A stretch of 64,000 bases of DNA, taken from Psychroflexus maritimus. Lineage in GTDB: Bacteria; Bacteroidota; Bacteroidia; Flavobacteriales; Flavobacteriaceae. Both the position numbers and the translations under genes were made by a program. Numbering within the stretch: the first letter of the stretch is position 1; each line of letters starts with the position of its first letter. The notes under the pieces were generated by a model. The model was given only the letters and a program-made list of their open reading frames with translations. It did no database searches and was not told the origin of the DNA. Positions 7,836 through 28,851 of the stretch are shown here, piece after piece. The stretch is from contig NZ_JAANAS010000061.1 in the NCBI RefSeq assembly GCF_011089875.1, forward strand, positions 62,001 to 126,000, given 5' to 3'.

Positions 7836-7926
7836 ATGAAACACAAATGCACAAATTTTTTTCACACAAGAGCATGTTTATACGTGAGGCATTTGACCAC
7901 TGAAAAGCAACTAATATAAACAGATG
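7836..7926 (+). repeat. 91-bp element with a 27-codon reading frame, copy A
   Basis: The element begins right after the wzz stop codon. It contains an ATG frame of 27 codons plus stop (7836-7919), starting MKHKCTNFFHT and ending in HLTTEKQLI, followed by ACAGATG. It aligns without gaps to 28761-28851, with 73 of 91 bases identical. I do not recognise it from any family. It could be a leader peptide, a small structured RNA or a mobile repeat. In this copy the trailing ATG opens only a 10-codon frame. Confidence 0.7.
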
Positions 7927-8048
7927 CAACGATGCTTGACTAGCAGGATGAGATAACTCTGCCGAATAAGTCTTAGAGGGAAGACAAACTCACTCTTTCA
8001 AACTGTTATTCCGTGAAAATTGTCTAAAGGAAATTTTATATTGAATCT

Positions 8049-8386
8049 CCTGTAACGAACAACAATGTCAGTTCGGTTGCTTTCAACGAATGTGACTTGA
8101 TTTGAAATTGTATCGAAGTGTCAGTTCGAGTTTTTTTTGAACGCTAAGTGAAAGAAAAAAGTATCGAGAACCTTTTGCAGCAGGACTCTCGATACAATTC
8201 CAATCTGTTTTTTTCACCAAAAACAAATCGGAATCACTCGAGCAGATAGTTGTATCGAAGTGCGGTCACTGAGTGATTTCAACAAACGCGAGTGGCGTTG
8301 AAATTGTATCTAAGTGTGGTCACTGAGTGATTGAATGTTTCATCAAAAAACATTCAATTGTATCGAAGTGAGCTCTCGATACATCT
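8049..8386. repeat. cluster of dispersed repeat modules (A and B)
   Basis: The 762-bp gap between wzz and der has no gene. After copy A of the 91-bp element and about 120 bp of unrecognised sequence comes this cluster. Module A (CCTGTAACGAACAACAATGT...) lies at 8049-8090. Module B (AATTGTATCTAAGTG...) lies at 8303-8344. Shortened B copies lie at 8106-8120, 8250-8278 and 8357-8371, and inverted TCGATACA pieces at about 8188 and 8378. Both 42-bp modules recur, inverted and adjacent, at 35765-35863 with 40 of 42 matches each. The rest up to 8567 shows nothing recognisable. Confidence 0.75.
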
Positions 8387-8567
8387 CGCTAACAAGATTC
8401 CAAATTCATTATCAACATCGTAAAAAGCGAGACACTCGAGCTGACACCCCACATCTTCAATGAAATAGAAATTTTTAATTTCGTAATTGAATTAATCCCG
8501 TGAGTGAAGCGATACGGAACAACACCAAACAAAAACCCGGCAATTAATTTTTGTCAGTTAAAAAGCC

Positions 8568-8575
8568 TAACTTTG
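8568..8575 (+). promoter_or_regulatory. -7 box of der
   Basis: TAACTTTG fits TAnnTTTG and lies 22 nt before the der ATG. TTTTTG upstream is at a shorter spacing than usual. Confidence 0.45.
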
Positions 8576-8597
8576 CACCCAAATTTGAATAAAAATT

Positions 8598-9902
8598 ATG
8601 GGAAGCATTGTTGCAATTGTAGGTCGTCCAAACGTAGGTAAATCAACCTTTTTCAATCGACTTATTCAACGTAGAGAAGCTATTGTTGATTCGGTAAGCG
8701 GAGTTACTAGAGACCGTCATTATGGGAAAACCGATTGGAATGGAAGAGAATTTTCGGTGATTGATACCGGAGGATACGTCATTGGAAGCGATGATGTTTT
8801 TGAAAAAGACATCGATAAACAAGTAGAATTAGCTATTGATGAAGCTGATGTAATCATTTTTGTAGTCGATGTTACTTCAGGAATTACTCCTGCAGATGAA
8901 GATGTAGCTAAACTTTTAAGAAAAGCGAACAAACCTACTTTAATTGCCGTAAACAAAGTAGATTCTAATAAAAACATGCTGGATGCTACCGAGTTTTATT
9001 CGTTAGGTTTAGGCGATTATTTCACCATTTCTGCCATTAATGGAAGCGGCTCTGGCGAGCTCCTAGACGCTGTTGTAGAAGCTTTACCTGAGGTAACCGA
9101 CGAAGAGGAAGAAGAATTACCCAAATTTGCAGTTGTTGGAAGACCTAACGCCGGAAAATCTTCATTCATTAACGCCTTAATTGGTGAAGAACGTTATATT
9201 GTAACCGACATTGCCGGAACTACAAGAGATTCTATAGACACTCGGTACAATCGTTTTGGTTTTGATTTTAAATTAGTAGATACCGCAGGAATTAGAAAAA
9301 AATCGAAAGTCAAAGAAAACCTTGAATTTTATTCGGTCATGCGAAGTGTTCGCGCCATTGAACATGCCGATGTGTGTATTTTGATTTTTGACGCCTCTAG
9401 AGGCTTTGATGGTCAAGTAGAGAATATTTTTTGGTTGGCAGAAAGAAACCGAAAAGGTATTGTGATTTTGGCTAATAAATGGGACAAAGTTGACAAAGAA
9501 ACCAACACCATTAAAGAGTATGAGAACGCCATTATAGAACGAATTAGACCTTTTGTAGATGTGCCTATTGTTTTTGTCTCAGTTCTTAACAAACAACGAA
9601 TTTTTAAGGCTATTGAAACGGCTGTTCAGGTGTATAAAAACAAAAGTACACGGATCAAAACTAAAGTTTTAAATGAAGTTTTACTGCCTGAAATTCTTAA
9701 AAATCCACCGCCAGCCATTAAAGGGAAATACGTAAAAATTAAATACATTACTCAATTACCCACACCTCAGCCACAGTTTGCCTTTTTTTGCAACTTGCCT
9801 CAATATGTAAAAGATTCATATAAACGATTTTTAGAAAATAAATTACGTGAGCACTTTGATTTAAACGGAGTTCCGGTTTCAATTTACATGCGTAAAAAAT
9901 AA
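8598..9902 (+). CDS. der: GTPase Der (EngA), 50S ribosome assembly
   Basis: This 434-residue protein has the double GTPase architecture unique to Der. The first P-loop is GRPNVGKST at residues 9-17, with DTGG as its G3 and NKVD as its G4. The second G domain begins near residue 175 with GRPNAGKSS, and its G4 is NKWD. The C-terminal KH-like domain occupies about 350-434. Der acts in late 50S maturation and is essential in most bacteria. The gene has its own promoter and stands apart from the parAB operon by 112 bp. Length and motifs are normal. Confidence 0.97.
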
Positions 9903-10014
9903 AAAGCCATTAAAATAGTTAATATGTTAATGCTTTGTTCATATCATTTAAAATAATTTTTTTTGTAATCCGTTATAAATTGTATTTTTACCAACTTTGA
10001 AACACGCTTAATAA

Positions 10015-10779
10015 ATGGGGAAAATAATTGCTATTGCTAATCAAAAAGGGGGCGTTGGAAAAACAACAACAGCGGTAAATTTATCGGCTGCTCTAGGTGT
10101 TCTTGAAAAAAAGGTCTTGCTCATTGATGCAGACCCCCAAGCCAATGCAACCTCTGGTCTGGGTATTGACTTAGATAACTTAAAAATAGGCACTTATCAA
10201 CTTTTAGAACATACCCAAAAAGCAGAAGACGCTATTATTTCTACCAATTCACCTAACTTAGAAATTATACCCGCGCACATTGATTTGGTGGCTATTGAAA
10301 TCGAATTGGTAGATCAAGAAAATAGAGAATACATGCTAAAAGAAGCTACTTCTCACCTAAAGGAAAAATACGATTACATTATTATAGATTGTGCCCCTTC
10401 GCTTGGTTTACTAACCTTAAACGCACTTACTGCTTCAGATTCAGTAATCATTCCTATTCAATGTGAATATTTTGCTTTAGAAGGGCTAGGTAAGCTGTTA
10501 AACACCATTAAAAGCGTGCAAAAAATACACAATGCGCAACTCGATTTTGAAGGCTTGCTTCTTACCATGTATGACTCAAGATTACGTCTTTCAAATCAAG
10601 TAGTTGAAGAAGTTGAAAAGCATTTTGAAGACATGGTCTTTAAAACTGTTATCCAACGAAATGTGAGATTAAGTGAAGCACCAAGTTACGGAGAAAGCAT
10701 TATTAAATATGACGCTTCTAGTAAAGGAGCAAATAATTATTTAAGCTTAGCTGAAGAAATCATTAAAAAGAATAATTAA
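10015..10779 (+). CDS. parA: chromosome partitioning ATPase ParA (Soj)
   Basis: This is a 254-residue deviant-Walker ATPase. KGGVGKTTT at residues 11-19 carries the signature lysine of the ParA/MinD superfamily, followed by LLIDADPQANATSGLG (switch I region) and DYIIIDCAPSLGLLT (Walker B). ParA dimerises with ATP, binds DNA nonspecifically and moves ParB-parS complexes during origin segregation. The stop codon overlaps the parB start by one base (TAATG), so the two are translationally coupled. Linkage to chromosomal genes (dapB, lepB) marks it as the chromosomal and not a plasmid copy. Confidence 0.96.
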   Translation: MGKIIAIANQKGGVGKTTTAVNLSAALGVLEKKVLLIDADPQANATSGLGIDLDNLKIGTYQLLEHTQKAEDAIISTNSPNLEIIPAHIDLVAIEIELVDQENREYMLKEATSHLKEKYDYIIIDCAPSLGLLTLNALTASDSVIIPIQCEYFALEGLGKLLNTIKSVQKIHNAQLDFEGLLLTMYDSRLRLSNQVVEEVEKHFEDMVFKTVIQRNVRLSEAPSYGESIIKYDASSKGANNYLSLAEEIIKKNN

Positions 10780-11687
10780 TGGCTAAAGCATCAAAAAAAA
10801 AGGCCCTTGGAAGAGGACTTTCGGCACTACTGAAAGACCCCGATAACGATATTCAGTCGGCTAAAGATAAAAATGCTGATAAAGTAGTTGGCAGTATTGT
10901 AGAATTAGAATTAGAGAGCATTGAAGTTAATCCTTTTCAACCGCGTTCTAGTTTTAACGAAGAAGCCTTAGAAGAATTAGCTTCTTCCATTAGAGAATTG
11001 GGGGTTATTCAACCTATTACCGTCAGAAAATTAGACTTTAATAAGTATCAATTGGTTTCTGGGGAACGCCGGTTTAGAGCTTCTAAGTTAGTTGGTCTAG
11101 AAACAATTCCCGCTTACATTAGAATTGCCAACGACCAAGAGTCTTTAGAAATGGCTTTGGTAGAAAATATTCAACGCCAAGATTTAGACCCTATTGAAAT
11201 TGCCCTTTCTTACCAACGATTAATTGATGAAATTGATTTAACACAAGAAGAGCTTAGTGACCGTATCGGAAAAAACCGATCAACCATTGCTAATTACCTA
11301 AGACTGCTAAAGTTAGATCCTATTGTTCAAACAGGTATGCGTGACGGTATTTTAAGCATGGGGCATGGAAGAACACTCATTGCTATTGAAGATGAAAACT
11401 CGCAAATTGAAGTATATCAAGAAATTATAAAAAACAAACTTTCTGTAAGAGAAACCGAAAAGCTAGTGAAGCAAGTTTTAAGCGGAAAAACACGTCAAAA
11501 TAAAACGAAAAAACCCATTGTTTCTGATGAAAAACAGAAAGCTATTAAGTCTATTTCTTCGGCTTTTGGCACTAAAGTAGAAATGAAATTAAGTAAAAAA
11601 GGCAATGGTAAATTAATTATACCCTTTTCATCGGATGAGGACTTTAACCGAATTCAACAATTAATTGAAGAGAACTTACATGATTAA
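10779..11687 (+). CDS. parB: chromosome partitioning protein ParB (Spo0J)
   Basis: This 302-residue protein begins KKKALGRGLSALLKD, typical of chromosomal ParB. The CTP-binding ParB/Srx domain contains NPFQPRSSF and GERRFRASK (arginine-rich box) at about 50-120. The central helix-turn-helix (LTQEELSDRIGKNRSTIANYLRLL) binds parS. The C-terminal part forms the dimer clamp. The product loads at parS sites near the origin as a CTP-gated clamp and stimulates ParA. No perfect classical parS palindrome (TGTTNCACGTGAAACA) was seen in this window by eye. Confidence 0.96.
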   Translation: MAKASKKKALGRGLSALLKDPDNDIQSAKDKNADKVVGSIVELELESIEVNPFQPRSSFNEEALEELASSIRELGVIQPITVRKLDFNKYQLVSGERRFRASKLVGLETIPAYIRIANDQESLEMALVENIQRQDLDPIEIALSYQRLIDEIDLTQEELSDRIGKNRSTIANYLRLLKLDPIVQTGMRDGILSMGHGRTLIAIEDENSQIEVYQEIIKNKLSVRETEKLVKQVLSGKTRQNKTKKPIVSDEKQKAIKSISSAFGTKVEMKLSKKGNGKLIIPFSSDEDFNRIQQLIEENLHD

Positions 11688-12270
11688 ATTCTTCTTTTGT
11701 GTATTATTCACCTTGAGCCTTCAATTTTCCTATGCGCAACAAGATACTTTATCGGTTGAAGAAAAAGAGTCGCTTATGCTTGAAGAATTAAAAAACACAG
11801 AAGATGAAGGTTTTGGCATTAACTTGTACGACCCACTAGCGCCATCAAAAGCCGCCTTCTATTCGGCTGTAGTACCTGGCTTAGGTCAAGTGTATAACCG
11901 CAGTTATTGGAAGGTCCCATTAGTTTATGCTGCTATAGGTACCACAGCGTATTTTTTTATTGACAACAACAAACAATACAACAGGTATAGAGACGCTTAT
12001 AAGCAGCGCTTAACAGGACAAATTGATGAGTTTGATGGAGTCTTGTCTAATCAAAACTTAATAGATGCCCAAAAGCAATTTAGAAGTAATCGGGATTTAT
12101 CCTTACTTTTGGTTTTTGGTGCCTACGTATTGAATATTGTTGATGCCAATGTTGATGCGCATTTACAACAATTTAATGTAACTGAAAATTTAAGTTTAAA
12201 ACCTGAAGCACAACAAAATTTTTTAACAGGTGGTTTAAATTTTGGCTTATCCTTAAATTTTAAGCTCTAA
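11680..12270 (+). CDS. DUF5683 membrane/envelope protein
   Basis: This 196-residue protein runs from ATG 11680. An upstream TTG start would only extend the signal peptide. The first 8 bases overlap the end of parB. A signal peptide (MIKFFFCVLFTLSLQFSYAQ) is followed by an acidic linker and the conserved block KAAFYSAVVPGLGQVYN, with a hydrophobic segment around YAAIGTTAYFFI. This is the DUF5683 family, conserved after parB in Flavobacteriaceae. The AAFYSAVVPGLGQ phrase resembles glycine-zipper membrane segments. Its function is unknown. The fixed position between partition and envelope genes suggests an envelope role, which is inference. Confidence 0.85.
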   Translation: MIKFFFCVLFTLSLQFSYAQQDTLSVEEKESLMLEELKNTEDEGFGINLYDPLAPSKAAFYSAVVPGLGQVYNRSYWKVPLVYAAIGTTAYFFIDNNKQYNRYRDAYKQRLTGQIDEFDGVLSNQNLIDAQKQFRSNRDLSLLLVFGAYVLNIVDANVDAHLQQFNVTENLSLKPEAQQNFLTGGLNFGLSLNFKL

Positions 12271-12336
12271 ATAACGTAACATTTATGCATGTTTACACAC
12301 CAATAAAAAGTAACTGCTGAAAATAAATACAAATCG

Positions 12337-13056
12337 ATGAAAATTGCATTGTTAGGTTACGGGAAAATGGGAAAAACCATTGAAAAGATTGCTTTAAATA
12401 GAGGTCATAAGATTTCATTAAAAGCCAATCAAACCCCAACAAGTGAAGAATTAAACGCTGTTGATGCGGCCATAGACTTTAGTGTACCTCATGCAGCATT
12501 TCAAAATCTAAGTGCTTGTTTTAAAAATCAAATTCCCGTAGCTTGCGGAACAACAGGTTGGTTAAACCAATACCAAGAAGCAGTAGAACTTTGTAAACAA
12601 CATAAGGCTAAATTTATATATGCTTCAAATTTTAGTCTTGGTGTAAATTTATTCTTTGAACTAAATGAAACCTTAGCCAAAATGATGCGTAAATTTGAAG
12701 CTTACCAAGTAGGAATGAAGGAAATTCATCATACGCAAAAATTAGATGCACCAAGCGGCACAGCTATTTCACTTGCAGAACAAATCATTGAAAACTCAAA
12801 TTACAGCAATTGGAAACATCCTGCAAAAAACCTAGCTAAAAACGAATTAGGTATTGAAGCCGAACGAATTGAAGACGTTAAAGGCACACACACCATAACC
12901 TATACCTCAGAAATCGATTCCATAGAAATAACACATAAAGCAAATTCTAGAGAGGGTTTTGCCTTAGGCGCAGTATTAGCTGCAGAATGGCTTGCTAACA
13001 AAAAAGAACCTGGTGTATATCAAATGAAAGATGTACTCAATACTTTGAAATCTTAA
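12337..13056 (+). CDS. dapB: 4-hydroxy-tetrahydrodipicolinate reductase DapB
   Basis: The 239-residue enzyme reduces 4-hydroxy-tetrahydrodipicolinate to tetrahydrodipicolinate with NAD(P)H in the diaminopimelate/lysine pathway. The nucleotide-binding motif is LLGYGKMGKTI at residues 4-14, CGTTGW is the conserved loop, and the catalytic and substrate-binding region is EIHHTQKLDAPSGTA. The protein is slightly shorter than the E. coli enzyme (about 273 residues), as is common in Bacteroidota. It lies 66 bp after the DUF5683 gene and 6 bp before lepB. Its pathway neighbour dapA is in this window at 23.8 kb, in a different operon. Confidence 0.96.
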   Translation: MKIALLGYGKMGKTIEKIALNRGHKISLKANQTPTSEELNAVDAAIDFSVPHAAFQNLSACFKNQIPVACGTTGWLNQYQEAVELCKQHKAKFIYASNFSLGVNLFFELNETLAKMMRKFEAYQVGMKEIHHTQKLDAPSGTAISLAEQIIENSNYSNWKHPAKNLAKNELGIEAERIEDVKGTHTITYTSEIDSIEITHKANSREGFALGAVLAAEWLANKKEPGVYQMKDVLNTLKS

Positions 13057-13062
13057 AAAACT

Positions 13063-14634
13063 ATGCTTACTTTTCTTAATCTTATTATCTTAATTTTAGT
13101 GGTTCAAGTAATTCACTTTGCAGGAACTTGGAAGTTGTATAAAAAAGCCGGTCAACCAGCTTGGAGTGCGGCTGTACCTATTTACAACGCAGTTGTACTC
13201 ACAAAAATAATGAAACGCCCAAATTGGTGGGTGATTTTACTTTTTATTCCTGTCATTAACTTAATTATGTTTCCTGTTTTTTGGGTAGAAACCATCAGAA
13301 GTTTCGGTAAAAACTCAAAACTTGATACCGCCCTAGTTGTGCTTACACTTGGTTTATATATCTATTACCTCAATTATTTTGATAAAAGTGAATACTTAGG
13401 AACGCGAGAACTTAAGGCGCAAAATAAAGCAGGGGAAACGCTGAGCTCTGTGCTTTTTGCTATTGTGGCTGCAACTATCGTGCATACCTACATCATGCAA
13501 CCTTTTACTATCCCAACTTCTTCTTTAGAAAAAACACTTTTGGTAGGCGACTTTTTGTTTGTTAGTAAATTTCATTACGGAGCTAAAACTCCTCAAACTC
13601 CTGTTGCTTTACCTATGGTTCACGATTCTATTCCATTAACGGGGGTGAAATCTTATGTAAGTAATATTCAGCTTCCTTATTTTAGATTGCCAGGTTTTCA
13701 GGAAATCAAACGAAATGATATTGTGGTTTTTAACTGGCCTACCGACACCGTTAGAATGTTTAGAGACAAGTCGGGTAAGCATTACCATAAGCCTATCGAC
13801 AAAAAATCGAATTACGTTAAAAGAGCCGTTGGTGTTGCAGGAGATAGCCTAAAAATTGAAAACGGCGTCATTTATATCAACGAAAAACCAGAACAATTAC
13901 CTGAACGTGCAGATATTCAATACTCGTATAAAGTTCAAGGAAAAGGAAAAGGCTTTGACCGCTATGAGCTATACAGTATTTACAACATTACTGATGGCGT
14001 TGGTATAGCTAACAGAGAACAAAAAATTTATCAGTTTCAAGCTATTTCAGAAAATACCTTAGAAGATTTTAAATACCACCCAAATGTGGCTTCAGCGGAA
14101 CCCATTATTATGAAAAAAGGGTATAAAGATGAAGCTATTTTTCCAAACAACGGGAAAGTAAATTGGAACAGAGACCAAATGGGAAGCATATACATCCCTA
14201 AAGAAGGCGATGTCATTCCTATGAATGAAAAAAACTTTTCCATCTATAGAAGACTCATTGAAGTCTATGAAGGCGAAGAAATGGGAGCTCAACAAGAGCT
14301 AAGCTTTGCTAATGGAAAAGTGCTTTTAAACGGAAAAGAAATTACCGAATACACCATCAAACAAAACTACTATTGGATGATGGGAGATAACCGTCACAAT
14401 AGTGAAGACAGCAGGTTTTGGGGCTTTGTTCCAGAAACACACATTGTTGGAAAACCCGTTTTTGTATGGATGAGTTGGGACAGCAATGCGTCTGGATTTA
14501 ACAAAGTACGTTGGAATAGATTATTTACGACCGTTGGCGGAGATGGAGAACCGGTTTCTTATTTTCCTTACTTTTTAATGCTTGTAGTATTAGGTCTAGG
14601 CTATCGCTTGTTCAAAAAACGCAAAGAAGCATAA
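13063..14634 (+). CDS. lepB: signal peptidase I LepB with N-terminal membrane domain
   Basis: This 523-residue S26 peptidase cleaves signal peptides at the periplasmic face of the inner membrane. The first about 110 residues form a DUF5684-like membrane domain with three to four hydrophobic segments (including AWSAAVPIYNAVVL). Another helix at about 127-145 leads into the catalytic serine box IPTSSLEKTL, with Ser154 in the catalytic position. The general-base lysine is Lys253 in NYVKRAVGVAGDSL. A long insert of about 150 residues follows before MMGDNRHNSEDSRFWG, the conserved box E. A final helix near residue 500 anchors the C-terminus. The length and insert are typical of Bacteroidota and well above E. 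coli LepB (324). Confidence 0.94.
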   Translation: MLTFLNLIILILVVQVIHFAGTWKLYKKAGQPAWSAAVPIYNAVVLTKIMKRPNWWVILLFIPVINLIMFPVFWVETIRSFGKNSKLDTALVVLTLGLYIYYLNYFDKSEYLGTRELKAQNKAGETLSSVLFAIVAATIVHTYIMQPFTIPTSSLEKTLLVGDFLFVSKFHYGAKTPQTPVALPMVHDSIPLTGVKSYVSNIQLPYFRLPGFQEIKRNDIVVFNWPTDTVRMFRDKSGKHYHKPIDKKSNYVKRAVGVAGDSLKIENGVIYINEKPEQLPERADIQYSYKVQGKGKGFDRYELYSIYNITDGVGIANREQKIYQFQAISENTLEDFKYHPNVASAEPIIMKKGYKDEAIFPNNGKVNWNRDQMGSIYIPKEGDVIPMNEKNFSIYRRLIEVYEGEEMGAQQELSFANGKVLLNGKEITEYTIKQNYYWMMGDNRHNSEDSRFWGFVPETHIVGKPVFVWMSWDSNASGFNKVRWNRLFTTVGGDGEPVSYFPYFLMLVVLGLGYRLFKKRKEA

Positions 14635-14638
14635 GTTT

Positions 14639-15265
14639 ATGGATGATAGTTGCTTACCACTTACTTATTTTGCTCCTATCGACTTAATTGCTCGGGCTCT
14701 AATTGCTGAGAACTGGATGTTTGAAGTCAACGAAAACTACCAAAAACAATCCTACCGAAGTCGGCAATACATTTATGGGGCTAATGGAAAATTACTATTA
14801 AATATTCCTATTAAACATCAAAAATCGGAAGTTAGAAAAAAGCAATTAATGAAAGAGGTAAAGATTGAAAACGATTTTCCTTGGCAGGATTTACATTGGA
14901 AATCCTTAGAAGTAGCTTATCGTTCTTCGCCTTATTTTGAGTTTTACGAAGATGATTTGCAACCCCTTTACGAAAAAAAATACACCTATTTAATTGATTT
15001 TAATTGGGCGTGTTGGCAAATTTTAATCGATTTTATGCAACTTGAAATTGTTCCTCAAAAAACCACTTCCTTTCATCTTAGTTATTCAGCTGAAATAAAT
15101 GATTTACGAGGTTTAGCTCAAGCAAAAAGAAAACATGAAACTGAAAACTTAAGGTATGCTCAGGTGTTTGAAGAAAAATTAGGTTTTATTCCTAATCTTA
15201 GTATTTTAGACTTACTTTTTAGCGAAGGGCCAAATACAAGTGCTATTTTAAGAGAATTAGAATAA
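14639..15265 (+). CDS. WbqC family protein
   Basis: This 208-residue protein belongs to the WbqC-like group: LPLTYFAPIDLIARAL near the start, YRSRQYIYGANGKLLLNIP at about 43-60, and HWKSLEVAYRSSPYFEFY at about 93-110. WbqC-like proteins are linked to O-antigen or other glycan loci in some bacteria, but the reaction is not established. The gene begins 4 bp after the lepB stop and ends the parA-parB-DUF5683-dapB-lepB-wbqC run, an order seen in many Flavobacteriaceae. It has no signal peptide and should be cytoplasmic. Confidence 0.85.
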   Translation: MDDSCLPLTYFAPIDLIARALIAENWMFEVNENYQKQSYRSRQYIYGANGKLLLNIPIKHQKSEVRKKQLMKEVKIENDFPWQDLHWKSLEVAYRSSPYFEFYEDDLQPLYEKKYTYLIDFNWACWQILIDFMQLEIVPQKTTSFHLSYSAEINDLRGLAQAKRKHETENLRYAQVFEEKLGFIPNLSILDLLFSEGPNTSAILRELE

Positions 15266-15333
15266 CCGAACTCAGAATTTTAAAATTTAATAAACTTAAA
15301 CAAATACGATTTTTATATCATCAAAAAATCACA

Positions 15334-16215: not shown

Positions 16216-16235
16216 AATTGAATACTAATTTTTGG

Positions 16236-16243
16236 CAAAGATA
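16236..16243 (-). promoter_or_regulatory. -7 box of era
   Basis: Read on the minus strand this is TATCTTTG, 21 nt before the era ATG. It is a perfect TAnnTTTG match. Confidence 0.6.
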
Positions 16244-16416
16244 AACTATATAAAGTTACAAGAATTAAAGTTAGCGATTTATACCAACTCAAACACTAAA
16301 TTTTGCTCTACTAACTACATTTAATTTTTAAATTAGTATTGTTCGCACACTAATCAATTCTTTAAATTATCTTTAAATTAAACTAATAAAAGTGAAAAAG
16401 GTACGCGCAAAAAAAA

Positions 16417-16424
16417 TATCTTTG
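16417..16424 (+). promoter_or_regulatory. -7 box of the outer-membrane protein gene
   Basis: TATCTTTG lies 14 nt before the ATG at 16439, which implies a very short A-rich leader. Confidence 0.6.
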
Positions 16425-16438
16425 CGTTAAATAAATCA

Positions 16439-16999: not shown

Positions 17000-17129
17000 A
17001 TGAAAGTCAATTAGAATTATATAAAACTCGTTTGAGTTTTAAAATTTTGGTTAAAGCTTCTTACTTCGCTGCATAAACCAAGATTTAATTTCTAGGATAG
17101 GTAATTATAGTAAATAAAAAATCTCAACT

Positions 17130-19133: not shown

Positions 19134-19186
19134 CCCAAAATTTGATAAATACCTTTTTTTAAAACACTTAAAACTAAAAAAAAAGC

Positions 19187-22100: not shown

Positions 22101-22426
22101 GTTTTATGCAGTTATCAGGAAAACAAGGCTTAGACCTAGAAATGGATTATTACCTAAAAATCCCGCTTAAATTAGTCACCCAAGTAGCTTCAAGAAAATT
22201 ATTTGGCAGTAAAAAAGAAGAAATTGACCCAGAACAGGAAGATGAAATCATTGAAAAAGACCTGAGTAAAAAAACGAGTTATGTGAATGTAAGGATGAAA
22301 GGAAATCCTGAGGATTATAGTATTTCGCTTAAAAAAAACAGAAAAGAAGAAAAGGGAGCCAAAGCTTTTGAAAAAGATGCTGATTTTCTATTTGATGATA
22401 TTAAAATTAAAAAATTTAGTTTGTAG
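19187..22426 (+). CDS. large AsmA-like envelope protein
   Basis: This 1079-residue protein has an N-terminal membrane anchor at about 7-28 (LLLWIVILPLLFFTAAGLYL) and a very long periplasmic part rich in beta-strands. The N-terminal part carries AsmA features (IEVAHTKISPFENFPYISID), and the C-terminal 250 residues resemble the AsmA_2 domain (NNLHGVMTGRIKGKV, LSGKQGLDLEMDYYLKIPL). AsmA/TamB/YhdP-type proteins form hydrophobic grooves thought to carry phospholipids from inner to outer membrane. The sequence ends in a charged tail (KKNRKEEKGAKAFEKD). It lies 53 bp after the antiporter gene and 52 bp before a lipoprotein gene. No frameshift or missing part is seen. Confidence 0.85.
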   Translation: MKTWKKLLLWIVILPLLFFTAAGLYLISQKDELTQKAIADYSKTIQGRIEVAHTKISPFENFPYISIDLQDVLVFENKTTNQAFVQIEDAYIGLDLLKIIRGKFDIKAVKLAKGDLQIIQNTENEYNAVTAFESLNNQEETSSENESLDYHLKKIKLEKIHLSKLSLKDSLQLDAQIETATSQLKSLDNQIKIHLDSDLTFNLINQQDTSFIKNKQMELHTDFLYDLKGSKIDFDKTQVEVESGVFGMSGHIDLADEVNMNLKFEGQKSNFDLFIALAPEEVSEALQIYENQGDVFFEASIKGKSINGNLPLVEARFGCKNGFFDNIEENKKLSDLNFLGSFTNGSERNIRTSEVKIQNFSASPEAGIFKGNLRITNFESPEIDLELDSDFDLNFLTGFFNLNDLRNLTGQVDLKMKFKDIIDLENPEKALEEFNQAYFASLSIKNLNFTTDSYHLPIQNLNIQAEMDGQLTTIDFFKFQLGSSDLSLKGSLTRLPDIIHQTNKAVEMDLQIVSDFVNFTELTSTSEEDENIFDEEIDDFKTKFKFQGKANTFLTSEILPIGTFYIEELNGKFKNYPHQLHDFFARIYIDKNDIKIEDFKGMLDDSDIHFSGNLTNYPILMNKEKEEGDVVFDFDLDANLIRLKDVFSYGEENYVPEDYREEVLREIRGKGSIDLHYKDSLVSTDFNLDILKGRMRIHPLKFNDFKGNLHLENEQLSFRNFSGKIGKSKFSVSGNYYLGKDKDFLKKGDIINFKASVLDLDELTNYKEPEPDEDGKVDHDDVFNIFEVPFRNMKINAAIGKLNYHKYLIDNFSSELRMQDDHYIYVEDMRFEAAGGKVALAGYFNGSNPDSIYMHPDLKMQEVDLDQLFFKFDNFGQDQMVSNNLHGVMTGRIKGKVLMHKDLTPYIEKSNLTIDVSVKNGMLENFEPMQALSDFFNDKNLNKVFFGSLENRLELKDGSIVIPTMVINSSLGFMQLSGKQGLDLEMDYYLKIPLKLVTQVASRKLFGSKKEEIDPEQEDEIIEKDLSKKTSYVNVRMKGNPEDYSISLKKNRKEEKGAKAFEKDADFLFDDIKIKKFSL

Positions 22427-22449
22427 AATTTGAATTTGGATTATATTTG
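22420..22449 (+). promoter_or_regulatory. promoter of the acidic lipoprotein gene
   Basis: TTTG at 22420-22423, 18 nt spacer, TATATTTG at 22442-22449. The -33 box overlaps the stop region of the AsmA-like gene. The ATG follows 29 nt after the -7 box. Confidence 0.6.
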
Positions 22450-22478
22450 GATTATATAAATCTTAACAATTGATAACA

Positions 22479-23189
22479 ATGAAAAAACTTTTTTTATTAG
22501 CCTTATTAGGTATGTTTATGCTAACTGCAACTACCTCATGCAGTAGTGATGATGACCAACCAATCATTGAAAACCCAGATCCAAACGACCCAGGAAATGG
22601 TGATGAAAACGGTGATAATGACAATAACGAAGAAGCTCAAAATTTCTTTAGTTTAAACGGAGAAGAATACCCGCTTAAAACTGGATCTCTGGATTTTTGG
22701 GGAGAAGAAGAAGAGGGAGTTTACGCTTGGGATATTAGTTTGTTATCGTCAAATTTTACATTTAATTTTCAAAATGAAGACTTTCCAATTGAATTTGATG
22801 ATGACTTAGTAAGCAGTATTCTTATAGAATTAAATACAGATACCAGCCAAGGACTTCAAGTAGGCACTTACCAAATTGATGAAAATAATTTTACTCCCTT
22901 TGTTTGCTCATACTTTGACATTATGCTTCAATGTAATTATTCAGATTTAGAAGCTGATGAAGAGGAAGTATGCGAAGGCTTTTACTTTATTGAATCTATT
23001 GGCTCAGTAGAAATTGTGTCTATTGAAGATGAAGTTTACGAGCTAAAAATTGAAGGAGAAACAGAAGAAGGTTTTGATTTTGAAGCGCATTACAAAGGTG
23101 AGCTTTTAGACTTAGAAAGTGTTTTTGGAAGACCTAGTAAGGAAATTGAGTCCAATAAAAAATTCAACAGAAAACAACGTAGAAAGTAA
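22479..23189 (+). CDS. acidic surface lipoprotein, function unknown
   Basis: This 236-residue protein runs from ATG 22479; an in-frame TTG 9 bases upstream is less likely. Its lipoprotein signal peptide ends at LTATTSC, with Cys21 lipidated. The Cys is followed by SSDDDQ, an acidic stretch like the lipoprotein export signal that sends Bacteroidota lipoproteins to the cell surface. A low-complexity Asn/Asp/Gly linker (PDPNDPGNGDENGDNDNN) leads to a compact beta-rich domain with three cysteines in about 30 residues (CSYFDIMLQCNY, EEVCEGFYF). I recognise no family. The tail is basic (KKFNRKQRRK). It ends at a clear intrinsic terminator. Confidence 0.8.
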   Translation: MKKLFLLALLGMFMLTATTSCSSDDDQPIIENPDPNDPGNGDENGDNDNNEEAQNFFSLNGEEYPLKTGSLDFWGEEEEGVYAWDISLLSSNFTFNFQNEDFPIEFDDDLVSSILIELNTDTSQGLQVGTYQIDENNFTPFVCSYFDIMLQCNYSDLEADEEEVCEGFYFIESIGSVEIVSIEDEVYELKIEGETEEGFDFEAHYKGELLDLESVFGRPSKEIESNKKFNRKQRRK

Positions 23190-23218
23190 AACAATTTCTA
23201 TTGATATAGTATAAAATC

Positions 23219-23250
23219 AACCGATAGCTAATCAGTTATCGGTTTTTTTT
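23219..23250 (+). terminator. intrinsic terminator
   Basis: AACCGATA (23219-23226) pairs with TATCGGTT (23237-23244), followed by a run of T to 23250. It closes the lipoprotein gene unit. Confidence 0.85.
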
Positions 23251-23293
23251 CTTGAAAAAATATCGTTCTAGTTTACAATTGATTTCTAAAATG

Positions 23294-23301
23294 TAAATTT
23301 G
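23294..23301 (+). promoter_or_regulatory. -7 box before the DUF6913-dapA unit
   Basis: TAAATTTG matches TAnnTTTG and lies 30 nt before the TTG start at 23332. Confidence 0.45.
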
Positions 23302-23331
23302 CAATTGAGAATTTAAAACAAAAAAAAGAAT

Positions 23332-23832
23332 TTGATTAAAAAATTCGCCATAAAACACAAACTCAAAAAACACTTTAAATCAGGATTAGTTGCTGGAAGT
23401 TATAATGCTAAAGTTCTTTTCCTTTTAGAGGAAGGGAAATTTTGCAAAGAAGAAATCGCGGTTGCTTTTACAGAAAGTTTCGGTGAGGCATATAAGCTTC
23501 ACTTTATCAATTTTACTGAAGATCATAAAAAGAAAAAAGAATTTCCGCAGAACTATTTTACAAAAACTGATTTCAACTTGTTTGGTCAATTAAAAAATGA
23601 AGAAACAAAAACACTACTGAAGAAAGATTTTGAGTATTTGTTTCATTTTTATGAACAAGAAAACAATTACCTTAACTTAGTGGCAGCCCAAACCAAAGCT
23701 AATTTAAGAGTAGGAATAAACAAAGTGAAGCAAGATTTAGTTCATATTCAGTTAAACCTCAAAGAAAAAAACTTGCCCTTATATTTCAAAGAAGCATTTA
23801 AATATTTAGAAATCATAAAAAAATCGGCTTAA
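23332..23832 (+). CDS. DUF6913-type protein (TTG start)
   Basis: This 166-residue cytoplasmic protein is conserved beside dapA in Flavobacteriaceae; its function is unknown. It begins at TTG 23332 (translated [13 protein letters not shown]). No in-frame ATG lies near the N-terminus, and the basic N-terminal segment is family-like, so TTG is the best start. Recognisable parts are [34 protein letters not shown] and [22 protein letters not shown], the last being the most conserved block. The gene ends one base before the dapA ATG, so the two are co-transcribed. A structural or regulatory link with the diaminopimelate pathway is only implied by position. Confidence 0.75.
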
Positions 23833-23833
23833 A

Positions 23834-24712
23834 ATGAAGAATTTAAAAGGAACAGGGGTGGCACTAATCACGCCTTTTAAGGAAGATAAAAGCCTTGACG
23901 TGGAAGCCCTAGAAAACTTAGTGGAATACCAAATAGAAAACAATATAGATTACATTGTTGCCCTAGGAACAACAGCAGAAAGTGCAAGCTTAAGCAAGGA
24001 AGAAAAAGAACTTGTTAAAACTACTATTGTAGAAAAAACCGCAGGTAGAATTCCATTAGTTTTAGGAATGGGGTCTAACAATACAAAAGCTTTGGTTGAA
24101 GAAATTAAAACTACTAACTTTGACGGATTTGACGCTGTTTTATCGGTTTCACCTTATTACAACAAACCTACGCAAGAAGGTATTTACCAGCATTTTAAAG
24201 CCGTAGCAGAAGCCTGTGATTTGCCCATCATTTTATACAACGTGCCAGGAAGAACCTCATCTAATATGGAAGTAGCAACCGTAGCAAGCTTAGCTAAAGA
24301 TTTTGATAATATTATAGGCATTAAAGAAGCCAAAGGAGACTTAGTGCAAGCAATGCAAATGATTAAAGCAACCCCTGAAGGTTTTTTGGTAATTTCAGGC
24401 GATGATATGATAACCTTACCCATGGTTTTAGCTGGCGGTGCGGGAGTAATTTCGGTTATTGCAGAAGGATTCCCTAAAGCGTTTTCAACAATGGTTAATT
24501 TAGGTTTAGAACGTAAAGTTGATGAAGCCTATAAAATTCATTATCAAATGGCACCGGGCATTGAGCTTATTTTTGAAGAAGGAAACCCCGCGGGCATTAA
24601 ATCGGTTTTTGAACAAAAAGGACTTTGCAAAAACGAACTTAGGCTACCCTTAGTAAAAGCCTCAGAAAGCCTACAATTGAAACTGAAAGAATTTAGCGAA
24701 AATTTAAAGTAA
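23834..24712 (+). CDS. dapA: 4-hydroxy-tetrahydrodipicolinate synthase DapA
   Basis: The 292-residue TIM-barrel aldolase condenses pyruvate with aspartate semialdehyde, the first committed step of lysine/diaminopimelate synthesis. The Schiff-base lysine is Lys164 in [10 protein letters not shown]. The pyruvate-binding GTTAES, the [14 protein letters not shown] tyrosine region and NVPGRTSSN are all present. Length equals the family norm. It is co-transcribed with the upstream DUF6913 gene. The next enzyme but one relation (DapB) is encoded at 12.3 kb. Confidence 0.97.
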
Positions 24713-24801
24713 TTTTTTACTAAAACCTGCGTTTATATCCTACTGAAAATGAACAAGAAACTAGACTTGAAATCTAATTTTTTAATTCATTATATTATCA
24801 G

Positions 24802-24809
24802 TAGATTTG
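24802..24809 (+). promoter_or_regulatory. -7 box of the bamD operon
   Basis: TAGATTTG matches TAnnTTTG and lies 16 nt before the bamD ATG. No -33 TTTG is evident at the right distance. Confidence 0.5.
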
Positions 24810-24825
24810 CAACATATTTCAGCTT

Positions 24826-25650
24826 ATGAAAAAAATATATTTAATTGCCTTTAGTGTTTTACTTTTAGCTTCTTGTGGCAAGTACAACAAAGCTTTAAAA
24901 AGTGATGATGTAGATAAGAAATTCACCTTAGCTAAAGAATATTACGAAATTGGAATTCAAGAAGAAAAAAAGAGTAAGCTCAACAAAGCAATACGCCTTC
25001 TAGAGCAAATTCAACCTGCCTTGAAAGGTAAACCCCAAGATGAGGTGGTTTCTTACATGATTGCCAATGCTTATTACACCATTGGAGACCACTTTATTTC
25101 TGGCTATCGATTTGATCGTTACGCAAAATCCTTTCCAGATTCGCCTAAGATTGAAGAAGCCTTATATAAATCAGCCAATTCCTATTTTGAAGTTTCGCCA
25201 AAATACAGCTTAGATCAGGAAGACACTCACAAAGCCATAGACAAACTACAATTTTATGTAAATGCTTTTGAAGATGGTGAGTTTTTCAACAAAGCTAATG
25301 AACAATTAGCCGTTTTAAGAGACAAGCTAGAACGCAAAGATTATGAAGTAGCTAAGCAACTTCACCACCGAAGAATTTGGAGACCAGCCATTCACGCATT
25401 AGGTAATTTCATCGACAATCACCCTGGCTCTAAATACAATGAAAACGCCTACTTTTATAAATTTGAATCGCAGTATATCTACGCGGTGAATAGCTTTAGA
25501 GCAATTGAAAGAGAGCGATTAGAAAAAGCGGTAGAGTATTACAATGATTTTGTTTCAAAATACCCTGATAGCGAATTTATGGAACAAGCTGAATTACACA
25601 AAAAAGAAATTGACGACGAGTTATATTATTTAGAATTATTAGATCTATAA
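24826..25650 (+). CDS. bamD: outer membrane assembly lipoprotein BamD
   Basis: This 274-residue lipoprotein has its lipobox at LLLASC (Cys17). The rest is TPR-like helix pairs: KEYYEIGIQEEKKSKLNKAI, ANAYYTIGDHFISGYRFDRYAKSFPDSP, and a C-terminal EYYNDFVSKYPDSEFMEQAE. BamD is the essential partner of BamA in inserting outer-membrane beta-barrels. The gene opens a tight run bamD-rpoZ-coaBC-porD, with 4 bp before rpoZ, which is a standard Flavobacteriaceae order. Length and TPR spacing are normal. Confidence 0.93.
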   Translation: MKKIYLIAFSVLLLASCGKYNKALKSDDVDKKFTLAKEYYEIGIQEEKKSKLNKAIRLLEQIQPALKGKPQDEVVSYMIANAYYTIGDHFISGYRFDRYAKSFPDSPKIEEALYKSANSYFEVSPKYSLDQEDTHKAIDKLQFYVNAFEDGEFFNKANEQLAVLRDKLERKDYEVAKQLHHRRIWRPAIHALGNFIDNHPGSKYNENAYFYKFESQYIYAVNSFRAIERERLEKAVEYYNDFVSKYPDSEFMEQAELHKKEIDDELYYLELLDL

Positions 25651-25654
25651 AACC

Positions 25655-25990
25655 ATGAATACAAATTTAAAAGATTCAAATGCCGCCCTATCTACCAAAA
25701 CCTACAACAGAAATGAGGTAGATAAAAAAACAGATAACATTTATGAAGCCATTTCTATTGTTTCAAAAAGATCTGAGCAAATTAACAGCGAAGTAAAAAG
25801 AGAACTCATTGAGAAATTAGAAGAATTTGCTACGCATAATGACAGCTTAAATGAAGTCTTTGAAAACAAAGAACAAATTGAAGTTTCTAAGTTTTATGAG
25901 CGTTTACCAAAAGCTCACGCACTTGCTTTACAAGAGTGGCTTGAAGACAAAATTTACTACAGAAAAACAGATAGCGATTTAGAAGCTTAA
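25655..25990 (+). CDS. rpoZ: DNA-directed RNA polymerase omega subunit
   Basis: This 111-residue omega/Rpb6-type protein supports assembly of the RNA polymerase beta' subunit. The core (TDNIYEAISIVSKRSEQIN) matches the Bacteroidota omega pattern, which is divergent from E. coli RpoZ. A longer acidic C-terminal half follows (FYERLPKAHALALQEWLEDK). The stop codon overlaps the coaBC start by one base (TAATG). Assignment is by family pattern and by the conserved position between bamD and coaBC. Confidence 0.85.
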   Translation: MNTNLKDSNAALSTKTYNRNEVDKKTDNIYEAISIVSKRSEQINSEVKRELIEKLEEFATHNDSLNEVFENKEQIEVSKFYERLPKAHALALQEWLEDKIYYRKTDSDLEA

Positions 25991-27192
25991 TGTCTTTTTT
26001 TAAAAATAAAAAAGTAGTTTTAGGTGTAAGCGGTGGTATTGCCGCTTACAAATCTACTTTTTTAGTACGCTTACTTATAAAAGCAGGCGCTGAAGTAAAA
26101 GTGATTTTAACCCCAAGCGCTGAAGAATTTGTCACTCCCCTTAGCTTATCTACCCTCTCCAAAAACCCTGTTTTTTCAAGCTTTGCAGATGAAGAAAAAA
26201 CTTGGTATAATCACGTAAATATTGGTTTATGGGCAGATTTTATGATTATTGCTCCAGCTACAGCAAACACATTATCTAAGATGATTAACGGCCATGCAGA
26301 TAATTTTTTAATTACCTCCTACCTTTCTGCTAAATGCCCCGTTTATATTGCTCCAGCAATGGATTTAGATATGTATCAACACCCGAGCACTCAAGCCAAT
26401 TTAAACTTACTTGAAAAACGTGGAAACAAAATCATACCTGCCGAAAGTGGCGAATTAGCCAGTGGGTTAGCTGGTCAAGGAAGAATGGCAGAACCTGAGA
26501 ACATCATCAAATTTATTGCTTCAGATTTAAGCAAAAGCTTACCGCTGTATGGCAAAAAAATACTCATTACCGCAGGCCCAACCTATGAAGCCATAGACCC
26601 TGTTCGCTTTATTGGCAATCACTCTAGCGGAAAAATGGGCTATAAATTAGCTGAAACGGCACTTCAACTTGGCGCTGAAGTTGTTTTAGTTAGTGGACCA
26701 AGCCATGAACTACTAAATGACGCTAAACTTACACTAATTAAAGTTACTTCAGCTGAAGAAATGCTTCAAGCTTGCCAAATTCATTTTAAAGATACAGAGG
26801 TTTTTATTGCATCAGCAGCAGTTTCAGATTACCGGCCAAAACACATTTCAACTCAAAAAATAAAAAAATCGGATGCTGAAATTCAAATTGAATTAGTTAA
26901 AAATCCAGATATTCTTTTTGAAATGGGACAGCAGAAAAAAAATCAATTAGTTGTTGGTTTTGCGCTTGAAACTAATAACGAAATAGAAAATGCAACGAAA
27001 AAGCTTCAAAAGAAAAACTTAGATTTTATTGTATTAAATTCGCTTCAAGACCAAGGAGCTGGATTTCAAAAAGACACGAACTTAGTCAAAATAATAGATC
27101 GGGAAAATAATATTAATACCTATTCGTTAAAACCTAAAAGCGAAGTAGCCAAAGATATTTTTGAAGTACTTTTGAAAAAACTACAACTTTAA
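25990..27192 (+). CDS. coaBC: bifunctional CoaBC (phosphopantothenoylcysteine synthetase/decarboxylase)
   Basis: The 400-residue enzyme makes 4'-phosphopantetheine in coenzyme A synthesis. The N-terminal flavoprotein half (CoaC) starts KKVVLGVSGGIAAYKS, contains the histidine motif region WYNHVNIGLWADFMIIAPATANT, and has APAMDLDM, the Bacteroidota form of the PxMNxxMW motif. The C-terminal CoaB half starts at about residue 187 with ILITAGPTYEAIDPVRFIGN and has SGKMGYKLAE and the late KNPDIL motif. Start and stop overlap both neighbours by one base, a sign of coupled translation. Confidence 0.95.
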   Translation: MSFFKNKKVVLGVSGGIAAYKSTFLVRLLIKAGAEVKVILTPSAEEFVTPLSLSTLSKNPVFSSFADEEKTWYNHVNIGLWADFMIIAPATANTLSKMINGHADNFLITSYLSAKCPVYIAPAMDLDMYQHPSTQANLNLLEKRGNKIIPAESGELASGLAGQGRMAEPENIIKFIASDLSKSLPLYGKKILITAGPTYEAIDPVRFIGNHSSGKMGYKLAETALQLGAEVVLVSGPSHELLNDAKLTLIKVTSAEEMLQACQIHFKDTEVFIASAAVSDYRPKHISTQKIKKSDAEIQIELVKNPDILFEMGQQKKNQLVVGFALETNNEIENATKKLQKKNLDFIVLNSLQDQGAGFQKDTNLVKIIDRENNINTYSLKPKSEVAKDIFEVLLKKLQL

Positions 27193-28088
27193 TGAAGTAT
27201 TGGATTTACATAATTACACTTGTTTTTGGACTTTCAAACTTGAATGCCCAAGAGTTTGAATGCCAGGTAAAGGTTGATGCAGTGCAAACAGGTAAGCTTC
27301 AATTAACAATTTTTGATAACCTTGAACAATCGCTTACAGAGTTTGTGAATCAAAATTCATGGACTAACAATCGCAACCTAAAAGACCACCAAAAAATTAA
27401 ATGTAGTATGTTCGTTAATATTACATCCTATGAAGATAATTTTTTTGAAGCCAGTATTCAGTTTCAATCCTCTAGACCTGTTTTTGGGTCTGATATTTCT
27501 ACACCTATCTTAAATATTAACGACCGAAGCTTTAATTTTAATTATACAGAATTTCAGCCCTTAAACTTTAATCCAAATACCTTTGAAACAAATTTGATAT
27601 CGGTAGTGAGTTTTTATCTTTTAACTAGCTTAGGAATGGATGCAGATAGCTTTGAAAAATTTGGAGGAACCGAGTATTATCAACAAGCGCAACAAGTAGC
27701 AAGCGCAGGTCAATCGGCTAATGCTTCAGGATGGAGTAGCAGTGGTGGATCTGGAGATTTTAATCGCTTTAACTTGATAAGAGACTTAATTTCTCAAAAC
27801 TTTTCTCAATTTAGAGAAGCGCTTTATGTTTACCACAGAGAAGGTTTAGACCAGATGCATGAAGATGTTGAATTGGGGAAAGAAAATATTATTCAAGCTT
27901 TAGATTTACTTAAAGAAAACAACAAAGTACGCCCCAATTCTTTATTGGTGAGATCCTTCTTTGATGCCAAAGCCAATGAGGTGCAACTTATCTTAAATGG
28001 CGGTCCTGAAGCTGATGTAGCCGCGATAAAAGAATCGCTCTACAAAATGGCCCCCGGACAAAATAGAGTTTGGAAAGAGATTAAATAG
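27192..28088 (+). CDS. porD: PorD-like DUF4835 protein, type IX secretion accessory
   Basis: This 298-residue protein has a signal peptide (MKYWIYIITLVFGLSNLNAQ). Motifs FECQVKVDAVQTGKLQ, LKDHQKIKCSMFVNIT, FQSSRPVFGSDISTPI and VVSFYLLTSLGMDADSFEKFGGTEYY are those of DUF4835, which includes PorD, needed for type IX secretion and gliding in related bacteria. It is the last gene of the bamD operon. The DNA-repair gene recN, which commonly follows it in Flavobacteriaceae, is absent; a convergent folA comes instead. The protein should be periplasmic or membrane associated. Confidence 0.88.
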   Translation: MKYWIYIITLVFGLSNLNAQEFECQVKVDAVQTGKLQLTIFDNLEQSLTEFVNQNSWTNNRNLKDHQKIKCSMFVNITSYEDNFFEASIQFQSSRPVFGSDISTPILNINDRSFNFNYTEFQPLNFNPNTFETNLISVVSFYLLTSLGMDADSFEKFGGTEYYQQAQQVASAGQSANASGWSSSGGSGDFNRFNLIRDLISQNFSQFREALYVYHREGLDQMHEDVELGKENIIQALDLLKENNKVRPNSLLVRSFFDAKANEVQLILNGGPEADVAAIKESLYKMAPGQNRVWKEIK

Positions 28089-28141
28089 AGTTTATCCCTA
28101 TTTATGGTAATCAATGACAAAGATTTAGGAACCCTAAAGTT

Positions 28142-28627
28142 TTACTCGATTTTTTCGTAACGCTCGTAAGTAAAAGCATAATTATGTTTGTCGTCTTTTG
28201 GATGGAATTCAGAATTCACTAATTTCCATACAGACCTATCTATTTCAGGAAAAAAAGTATCGGCTTCAAAACTTCCATGCACTCTTGTTAATTCAATAGC
28301 ATCAGCCAAAGACATAGCTTGTTTGTAGATTTGTCCTCCTCCAATAATGTAAGGATTTTCATCAGCTTTTGCTTCATCAATAGCTTGGTTTAAAGAATAA
28401 ACCACTTTTCCACCCTCAGGAGAATAATTAGTATTTCGAGAAATAATTAAATGTGTGCGATTAGGAAGTGGTTTAGGAAAAGAATCAAAAGTCTTTCTTC
28501 CCATAATAATGTAATGCCCCGTAGTTAGGCTTTTAAAACGTTTAAAATCGTCTGGTAAATGCCAAACCAAATCGTTATCTTTTCCTAATTCATTTCCTTC
28601 ACCAACAGCGGCTATCATTGTGAGCAT
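28142..28627 (-). CDS. folA: dihydrofolate reductase
   Basis: The 161-residue enzyme reduces dihydrofolate with NADPH. Diagnostic residues are MIAAVGEGNELGKDNDLVWHLPDDF (substrate and cofactor loop, with the acid Asp in LPDD), GRKTFDSFPKPLPNR (NADPH phosphate binding) and IIGGGQIYKQA (GG loop). Length is normal for bacterial chromosomal DHFR. The start could be ATG 28627 or the Met three codons later. It converges on porD with a 53-bp gap. No thymidylate synthase gene is adjacent in this window, although the two are often linked. Confidence 0.96.
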   Translation of the reverse strand: MLTMIAAVGEGNELGKDNDLVWHLPDDFKRFKSLTTGHYIIMGRKTFDSFPKPLPNRTHLIISRNTNYSPEGGKVVYSLNQAIDEAKADENPYIIGGGQIYKQAMSLADAIELTRVHGSFEADTFFPEIDRSVWKLVNSEFHPKDDKHNYAFTYERYEKIE

Positions 28628-28760
28628 CGTAAAATTTTTGGTAAATATAATGCTTAATAACGAATTGAAATTGTAAAAATAAGATAAAACGAATATGAAA
28701 ATTTAAATCAAATTTTGAATAATCCTCTCGCTTGCATTATACATTTGTAAAAAAAGAAAG

Positions 28761-28851
28761 ATGAAACACGCATGTACAAATTTTCTACACACAGGAAGCT
28801 GATTATACGTGTTGCATCTGACCACTTATAAACAAATAAAATAAACAGATG
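28761..28851 (+). repeat. 91-bp element with a 27-codon reading frame, copy B, abutting osmC-like start
   Basis: This copy is the gap-free relative of 7836-7926 (73 of 91 bases identical). The frame starts MKHACTNFLHTGS, then has TGA where copy A has TGT (Cys), and continues LYVLHLTTYKQIK to a TAA at 28842-28844. Eighteen of 27 positions encode the same residue. The last three bases of the element are the ATG of the OsmC-like gene. ATGAAACACG (28761-28770) can pair with CGTGTTGCAT (28808-28817), with one mismatch. The element therefore sits in the mRNA leader of the OsmC-like gene. Confidence 0.7.

Follow-up and report, generated by a model that had tools for sequence, protein, structure and literature searches.

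The two similar 91-bp stretches at positions 7836-7926 (copy A) and 28761-28851 (copy B) of a 64,000-nt piece of the Psychroflexus maritimus genome (the window; the assembly is 2.59 Mb in 126 contigs) belong to a large family of short repeats. These repeats are dispersed, form tandem arrays, are missing from empty sites in sister species, lie mostly on gene starts and carry two covarying helices. Our preferred reading, held as probable at about 0.77, is a mobile element of ~88-90 bp that is non-autonomous and targets start codons, entering on the 3' side of NTGAA and supplying ATGAA as its own 3' end. A preliminary description had reported a duplicated pair and proposed a regulatory leader, perhaps a Cys-containing leader peptide or a structured RNA, whose downstream gene had been lost at copy A; taken as a whole, that interpretation was partly supported. 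The gapless alignment was reproduced with 73 of 91 positions identical, as were the 27-codon frame of copy A, the TGA that ends this frame after 13 codons in copy B, and the trailing ATG that is the OsmC start (28849) in copy B and opens a 10-codon frame in copy A. Only these two sites in the window match a 24-base core pattern when up to 3 mismatches are allowed and, because two sites occurred in 0 of 100 shuffles, the pair is beyond chance. The two copies are real, but they are members of a much larger set: BLAST of copy B against the assembly found 17 full copies at E <=3.7e-12, plus partial and tandem ones, and a family model gave 21 matches at E <=4.3e-7.

Comparison with related genomes revealed sites without the insert. 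In the sister genome G002, the osmC site is ...TTTACATTTGTAAAAAAAGTAAA|ATGAAAATTCAACTT; upstream of it, 169 of 203 aligned columns agree with P. maritimus, TTTACATTTGTAAAAAAAG being part of the shared sequence, and ATGAAAATTCAACTT follows directly, at the junction where 88 bp stand in P. maritimus. The insert is likewise missing from osmC in G015 (orthologues were matched in 21 of 27 genus genomes, and starts were read in P. maritimus, G002 and G015). The empty site in two sister species shows insertion, which contradicts the idea of an ancestral leader at this gene. A second empty site was found at murF, for which 31 genomes were matched and starts read in G476 (another class), its congener G677, and L376 (another genus). 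G476 reads ...AAAGTTGAA[87 nt]CAGAGTGACTTT, that is TTGAA[87 nt]CAGAGT, and the empty site in G677 reads ...GTATTTGAAAAGGGTAACTTT, that is TTGAA|AAGGGT.

The copies in G476 also separate the two ends (10 of the 11 listed matches were fetched). Their left ends are ATGAA in seven cases and GTGAA, TTGAA and CTGAA in one each, while the right end is ATGAA in 10 of 10. Because the left end varies, the right end is constant and the empty murF site holds TTGAA, the left NTGAA is host target there and the right ATGAA belongs to the element. The murF start codon in G476 has been replaced by the element's own ATG, the target apparently having been a TTG start that overlapped the TGA ending the preceding frame. 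The short target is kept 5' of the left end and not duplicated, as seen at murF in G677 and G476 and in the G476 ends; a six-base duplication was rejected for G476, where the sixth bases differ in 7 of 10 copies. Among 128 copies from the family of P. maritimus (12 duplicates dropped), the left end was ATGAA in 121 and the right end in 125, and the right-end ATGAA was present in 145 of all 148 copies counted, each of them found with a search model that includes the end. The 91-bp match is real, but the inserted unit is more accurately delimited as the 88 bp that follow the left ATGAA (28766-28853 in copy B), with boundaries transferred from the copies in the distant genome G476 and from the murF empty site.

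An element match was detected in 129 of 299 sampled family genomes and 111 of 236 genera (E <=0.001), in a survey that scored ~14 candidates per genome under strict filters. In a draw across the phylum, 28 of 345 genomes matched at E <=1e-4: 18 from the same family, 5 from its order, 4 from its class and 1 from beyond. One query each of plasmid and phage records gave no match at E 0.01, and three pattern scans of viral contigs gave no copy. Some copies are identical, with eight dispersed 98-base copies at 100% identity in G032 and two identical dispersed copies in G174, where others are 98-99% identical. Older insertions are represented by the copies before a dUTPase gene and before a TrkA_N gene, which are common to P. 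maritimus and G002. Tandem copies use one common ATGAA between neighbours, and 17 of 109 left flanks resemble the right end of another copy. Rfam gave 0 matches in the window and, in six copy-bearing loci searched at E <=10, no listed match that reached its family's gathering score; searches limited to open-licence PMC papers found no description of the element. Two arrangements in G000, the P. maritimus assembly, were also observed: three tandem copies ahead of one gene at G000:C52:424-693, of which the first and third have the same unusual interior around an ordinary copy, and a small gene family (MKKSQQIFTV..., DAMGGFEDNVNDVPIN) at L004, L006 and L012 that has seemingly been duplicated together with element copies.

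No downstream gene was preferred, counter to what a regulatory leader would suggest. Almost all copies extend from one ATGAAA to another, and the second is usually the start of an unrelated gene (osmC, kdsB, dut, ham1-like, argG, murF), and the downstream products checked were KdsB, dUTPase, a Ham1/RdgB-type protein, nucleotide sugar dehydrogenase, argininosuccinate synthase, YidD, glutamate racemase, MurF and a TrkA_N protein. In other family genomes, 60 copies were taken in score order; 5 were followed by another copy by sequence, and the right ATG opened a frame of at least 57 codons in 48 of the remaining 55. Long frames followed the right ATG in 14 of 17 copies in P. maritimus, the exceptions being copy A, L012 (a further copy comes next) and L016 (the copy ends a few bases before the start); L004, L006 and L012 lie in similar duplicated loci and are therefore non-independent. 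Corresponding counts were 19 of 27 in G032, 18 of 20 in G190 and 8 of 10 in G476. The bases preceding the left ATG show a peak of A at -12, which would be predicted had the left ATG once begun a gene. At its 3' end the element places a C at -3 from the new ATG, a position at which A is the favourable base according to passages of PMC6847099.

Nearly all full copies start with ATGAAAC and end with CA[G/C]ATGAA (exceptions include L008, L091, L012, L017 and L256), and they share the segments CATG, ACACA, ATGATTA and CAT.TGACC and an A-rich stretch ending ATAAACA. In helix 1, the bases just inside the left end pair with bases before CATSTG; in helix 2, CATSTG pairs with the terminal CASATG across a long A-rich loop rather than in a compact hairpin. 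RNAalifold returned no pairs for the first 40 copies, and the helices were then named by eye and tested with controls, so that their discovery was not blind. In 100 distinct copies, aligned to fit the structure and hence in its favour, 91.2% of 1100 cells were paired compared to 80.6% in shuffles, 119 of the 1100 had changed on both sides (40.7 in shuffles, 0/500 as high), further pair types numbered 20 (15.5 in shuffles, 0/500 as high), and the covariation score was 0.282 (0.108 in shuffles, at most 0.093 in slid pairings). A 40-copy MAFFT alignment that used no structure gave a score of 0.189 (0.085 in shuffles, at most 0.069 in slid pairings) and 24 two-sided cells (6.3 in shuffles), with 4 pairs changed on both sides versus 2.8 (29/500) and 10 further pair types versus 9.3 (213/500). 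This 40-copy alignment, the earlier of the two, left out L016, L074, L081, L082, L094, L099, L102, L097 (no BLAST hit) and identical rows. Across the family, helix 1 shows both-sided changes at three of five pairs, and helix 2 is paired in 97.2% of cells, its middle pair swapping between C-G, G-C and U-A. The conserved structure envisaged in the preliminary description was thus borne out by covariation.

When copy B was folded as RNA (200 nt with flanks), helix 1 had a pair probability of 0.97-0.98. The isolated consensus forms both helices, whether folded as DNA or as RNA, unlike the consensus sequences of some other subfamilies. Helix 1 carries a tandem G.A motif in 17 rows; with these set aside, mismatches read on the gene-sense strand comprised 28 G.T against 8 A.C and 28 others (83 rows, p 0.0012, although cells are not independent because the copies are related). 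If the opposite strand folded, A.C should outnumber G.T, so this excess, together with the tandem G.A rows, supports the gene-sense strand as the probable folding strand. A likeness of GAAAC-stem-GUC to a hammerhead was dropped, since the covarying CASATG stands in place of the CUGANGA strand that a hammerhead requires. Some copies (L174 in G032, L074, L081, L094, L020 and L040) have an extra, GC-richer hairpin of ~25-40 nt near the CAT.TGAC segment, such as CCTGCACTGAGC...GTCGAAG or CCTGCC...GGCGGG, as if a hairpin like a repetitive extragenic palindrome (REP) had entered the element.

In the mechanism that we propose, insertion takes place on the 3' side of a short target (NTGAA where decidable, ATGAAA in nearly all copies of the element's own family), and the element would bring ATGAA as its own 3' end. 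The invaded gene would keep its protein and gain a new leader, with its old start opening a short upstream frame of 4-30 codons; an effect on translation or expression is possible. The bias towards start codons would follow in large part from how often genes begin with ATGAAA, from the restoration of the start on insertion and from the loss of intragenic insertions. Movement may occur as single-stranded DNA through an enzyme of the HUH/Y1 type, to which we give an even chance because the layout resembles IS200/IS605 ends: the target stays on the left and the same TGAA ends the element on the right, inverted repeats are absent, a hairpin lies close to the left end, and an internal CATSTG can pair with the terminal CASATG. 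The Y1 transposase domain PF01797 was found in 105 of 299 family genomes (E <=1e-5), namely 57 of 129 element carriers and 48 of 170 genomes without the element, and in 21 of 31 genomes with ten or more element matches. The IS200-type genes of G000 are broken or partial, and G247 has only a RAYT-like gene (REP-associated tyrosine transposase). This link to the element is an association, suggestive and no more. In two places, L115 (G019) and G000:C31:52589-52939, a Y1 (IS200-like) domain was observed inside an open frame of ~1200 codons, at L115 between parts of an Eco57I/MmeI-type restriction-modification enzyme.

The element shares with IS200/IS605 the lack of terminal inverted repeats, a left target that is kept, an equivalent sequence ending the element on the right, a hairpin near an end, an internal segment pairing with the right terminus and one apparently active strand. 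It differs in concentrating on gene starts, donating an ATG, being ~90 bp long and having no transposase found with its ends. IS200/IS605 elements carry subterminal hairpins of ~20-25 nt at both ends; here the covarying helix 1 lies near the left end, and the right end pairs through the long-loop helix 2. Like REPs and REPINs, which go with TnpA-REP/RAYT genes, it is small, folded, multi-copy and possibly Y1-dependent, and RAYT-like genes occur in several carriers. According to PMC6006769 (Quentin et al. 2018), REPs are hairpins of 21-65 nt that carry a tetranucleotide foot on the 5' side, and RAYT genes of subclass 2.6 have, in Bacteroidetes, atypical flanking structures that recur at other places in the genome. 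By eye, the 100-copy consensus has no GTAG-type foot. Of 46 Y1 loci with ~1.5 kb on each side, 4 hold a copy, and none was seen framing the gene (L358 read). The mobile or repeat candidates of structured-RNA surveys (PMC11109978) are likewise structured, multi-copy, thought to be selfish and in some cases near transposases; the portion of that text seen contains no Bacteroidota or start-codon-targeted motif, with 0 occurrences of "Flavobacteri" and "Bacteroid". DDE-type miniature inverted-repeat transposable elements are also small, non-autonomous, dispersed and often beside genes, whereas the ends here, AC.../...CAGATGAA, are not inverted repeats and the flanks show no true duplication where this is distinguishable.

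Several observations weigh against a start-codon-targeted element moved by a Y1 enzyme. All the copies whose ends were counted had been found by a model containing both ends, which biases these counts, and the sixth bases are equal in 126 of the 128 own-family copies, compatible with a 6-bp duplication there. G529 has a long frame after only 2 of 5 copies without another copy next. By a crude gene call, 69 of the 96 ATGAAA in the window lie inside genes, 16 at or near starts and 11 elsewhere; copy B itself made one of the 16, and element left ends are two of the 11. Start preference is only modestly above expectation, and the extra preference is small because an ATGAAA-specific element that is lost from coding sequence would mostly sit at starts anyway. 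The number of pairs with any two-sided change in the 100-copy alignment was 4, against 4.2 in shuffles, and helix 2 reached a pair probability of only 0.12 in the flanked RNA fold of copy B. As for the enzyme, an autonomous element with these ends was not found, and the ends differ in the one G032 IS200 type inspected (L103, L118). Ten of the 31 genomes with ten or more matches have no PF01797 match (E 1e-5), and the association is uncorrected for phylogeny and general transposon load. The closest copies are more alike in ten PF01797-positive genomes (0.89-1.0 identical) than in five negative ones (0.81-0.94; p 0.008), which speaks for the Y1 link, but the comparison uses 15 hand-picked genomes with 3-27 copies each. 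Finally, on the strand that folds, CATSTG is found 3' of helix 1, whereas passages of PMC6006769 place the IS200/IS605 guide just 5' of the hairpin foot. Overall, we describe a real, widespread, structured mobile element, targeted to start codons, that works like a derivative of IS200/IS605 ends; we do not file it there because one defining feature, the guide position, fails and the transposase is unproven.

The same target could be used by another enzyme: a reverse transcriptase acting through RNA, an RNA-guided IS110-type enzyme or a site-specific recombinase with a TGAA core. The high-copy genomes lacking PF01797 and the gene-sense folding strand would fit such an enzyme, and the conserved A-rich 3' segment and lack of inverted repeats suit RNA-mediated copying; the layout of left-target and right-terminal TGAA, however, is as described for single-strand transposons, and we regard this alternative as unlikely, though one to be taken seriously. 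A cis-regulatory structured RNA leader, spread and kept for regulation, for instance with helix 2 hiding the start codon, is less probable still. It would account for the covarying fold, the conserved segments outside the helices, the folding of the sense strand and the position of copy B between a promoter-like box and the OsmC start. It does not sit well with the unrelated downstream genes, the identical recent copies, or the 7 of 55 family copies and 8 of 27 G032 copies that are followed by no long frame. Start hiding in particular is weakened because of the low helix 2 probability in copy B, where the OsmC AUG is mostly paired elsewhere, and helix 2 alone is worth -4.3 to -5.4 kcal/mol.

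The other form of the proposal, a Cys-containing leader peptide, is very hard to credit. The left ATG does open a frame in nearly all copies, and frames in P. maritimus mostly stop near codon 13. However, in the 100 distinct copies (own and other genomes) an early stop is the norm, with frames of 4 codons in 31, 5 codons in 15, 13 codons in 23 and 27 codons in one, over a range of 4-30. Among 11 copies from P. maritimus, 36 of 43 changed codons were non-synonymous and 7 synonymous, with 21, 18 and 14 changes at the three codon positions, element lengths vary from 85 to 91 without a multiple-of-three pattern, and the left ATG at osmC is the old start. Judged by these codon comparisons, conservation of the short frame as a peptide is refuted.

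If a start-codon-targeted mobile element is the correct explanation, it uses the start codon as a safe harbour in a phylum without Shine-Dalgarno sequences, which Bacteroidota mRNAs lack according to parts of PMC6847099; an A-rich leader of foreign origin may be tolerated in such a phylum. In particular genomes the element has given core genes, among them murF, glutamate racemase, dut, kdsB and argG, a different leader and upstream frame and in some cases a different start codon, and it can mislead gene-start annotation and searches for RNA motifs. A broader proposal, which we hold tentatively and at somewhat less than even odds, is a phylum-wide class of start-codon-donating transposons in which the internal CAT of a folded single strand would pair both with its own terminal ATG and with the ATG of the target start. 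Such transposons would enter genes where the insertion restores itself, convert GTG and TTG starts to ATG, build leader arrays and depend on an unrecognised enzyme.

The features of the two window copies are collected in the table below.

Coordinates of copies A and B and associated features in the window
Feature	Position	Strand	Basis or remark
Left flank ATGAA, copy A	7836..7840	+	Directly after the TAG of a Wzz/GNVR gene (6678-7835)
27-codon frame, copy A	7836..7919	+	Open since the usual stop reads TGT here
Copy A element, 88 bp, right end ATGCA	7841..7928	+	Model match 90.3 bits, E 2.9e-14
Promoter-like box TACATTTG	28740..28747	+	Upstream of copy B; present at the empty G002 site too
Left flank ATGAA, copy B	28761..28765	+	Modelled as the original osmC start; now opens the 13-codon frame
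13-codon upstream frame, copy B (with TGA)	28761..28802	+	No conservation as peptide
Copy B element, 88 bp, AC... to ...CAGATGAA	28766..28853	+	Family alignments; boundaries from G476/murF
Helix 1, copy B (28766-28770 with 28808-28812)	28766..28812	+	Family covariation; RNA fold
Helix 2, copy B (CATCTG 28815-28820 with CAGATG 28846-28851)	28815..28851	+	Contains the present OsmC start codon
OsmC-like gene	28849..29277	+	Pfam OsmC E 2.9e-20; present start codon is the element 3' end

The box upstream of copy B was called promoter-like on the basis of TAnnTTTG, which we take to be the Bacteroidota -7 consensus. At copy A it is possible that a downstream gene was lost, as the preliminary description had it, and also possible that the copy inserted at an ATGAAA that never was a start. 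On the 3' side of copy A, in the gap ahead of a gene for an EngA-like GTPase, positions 8078-8386 hold direct repeats that contain TTGTATCGAAGTG, along with an inverted pair of 15 nt.

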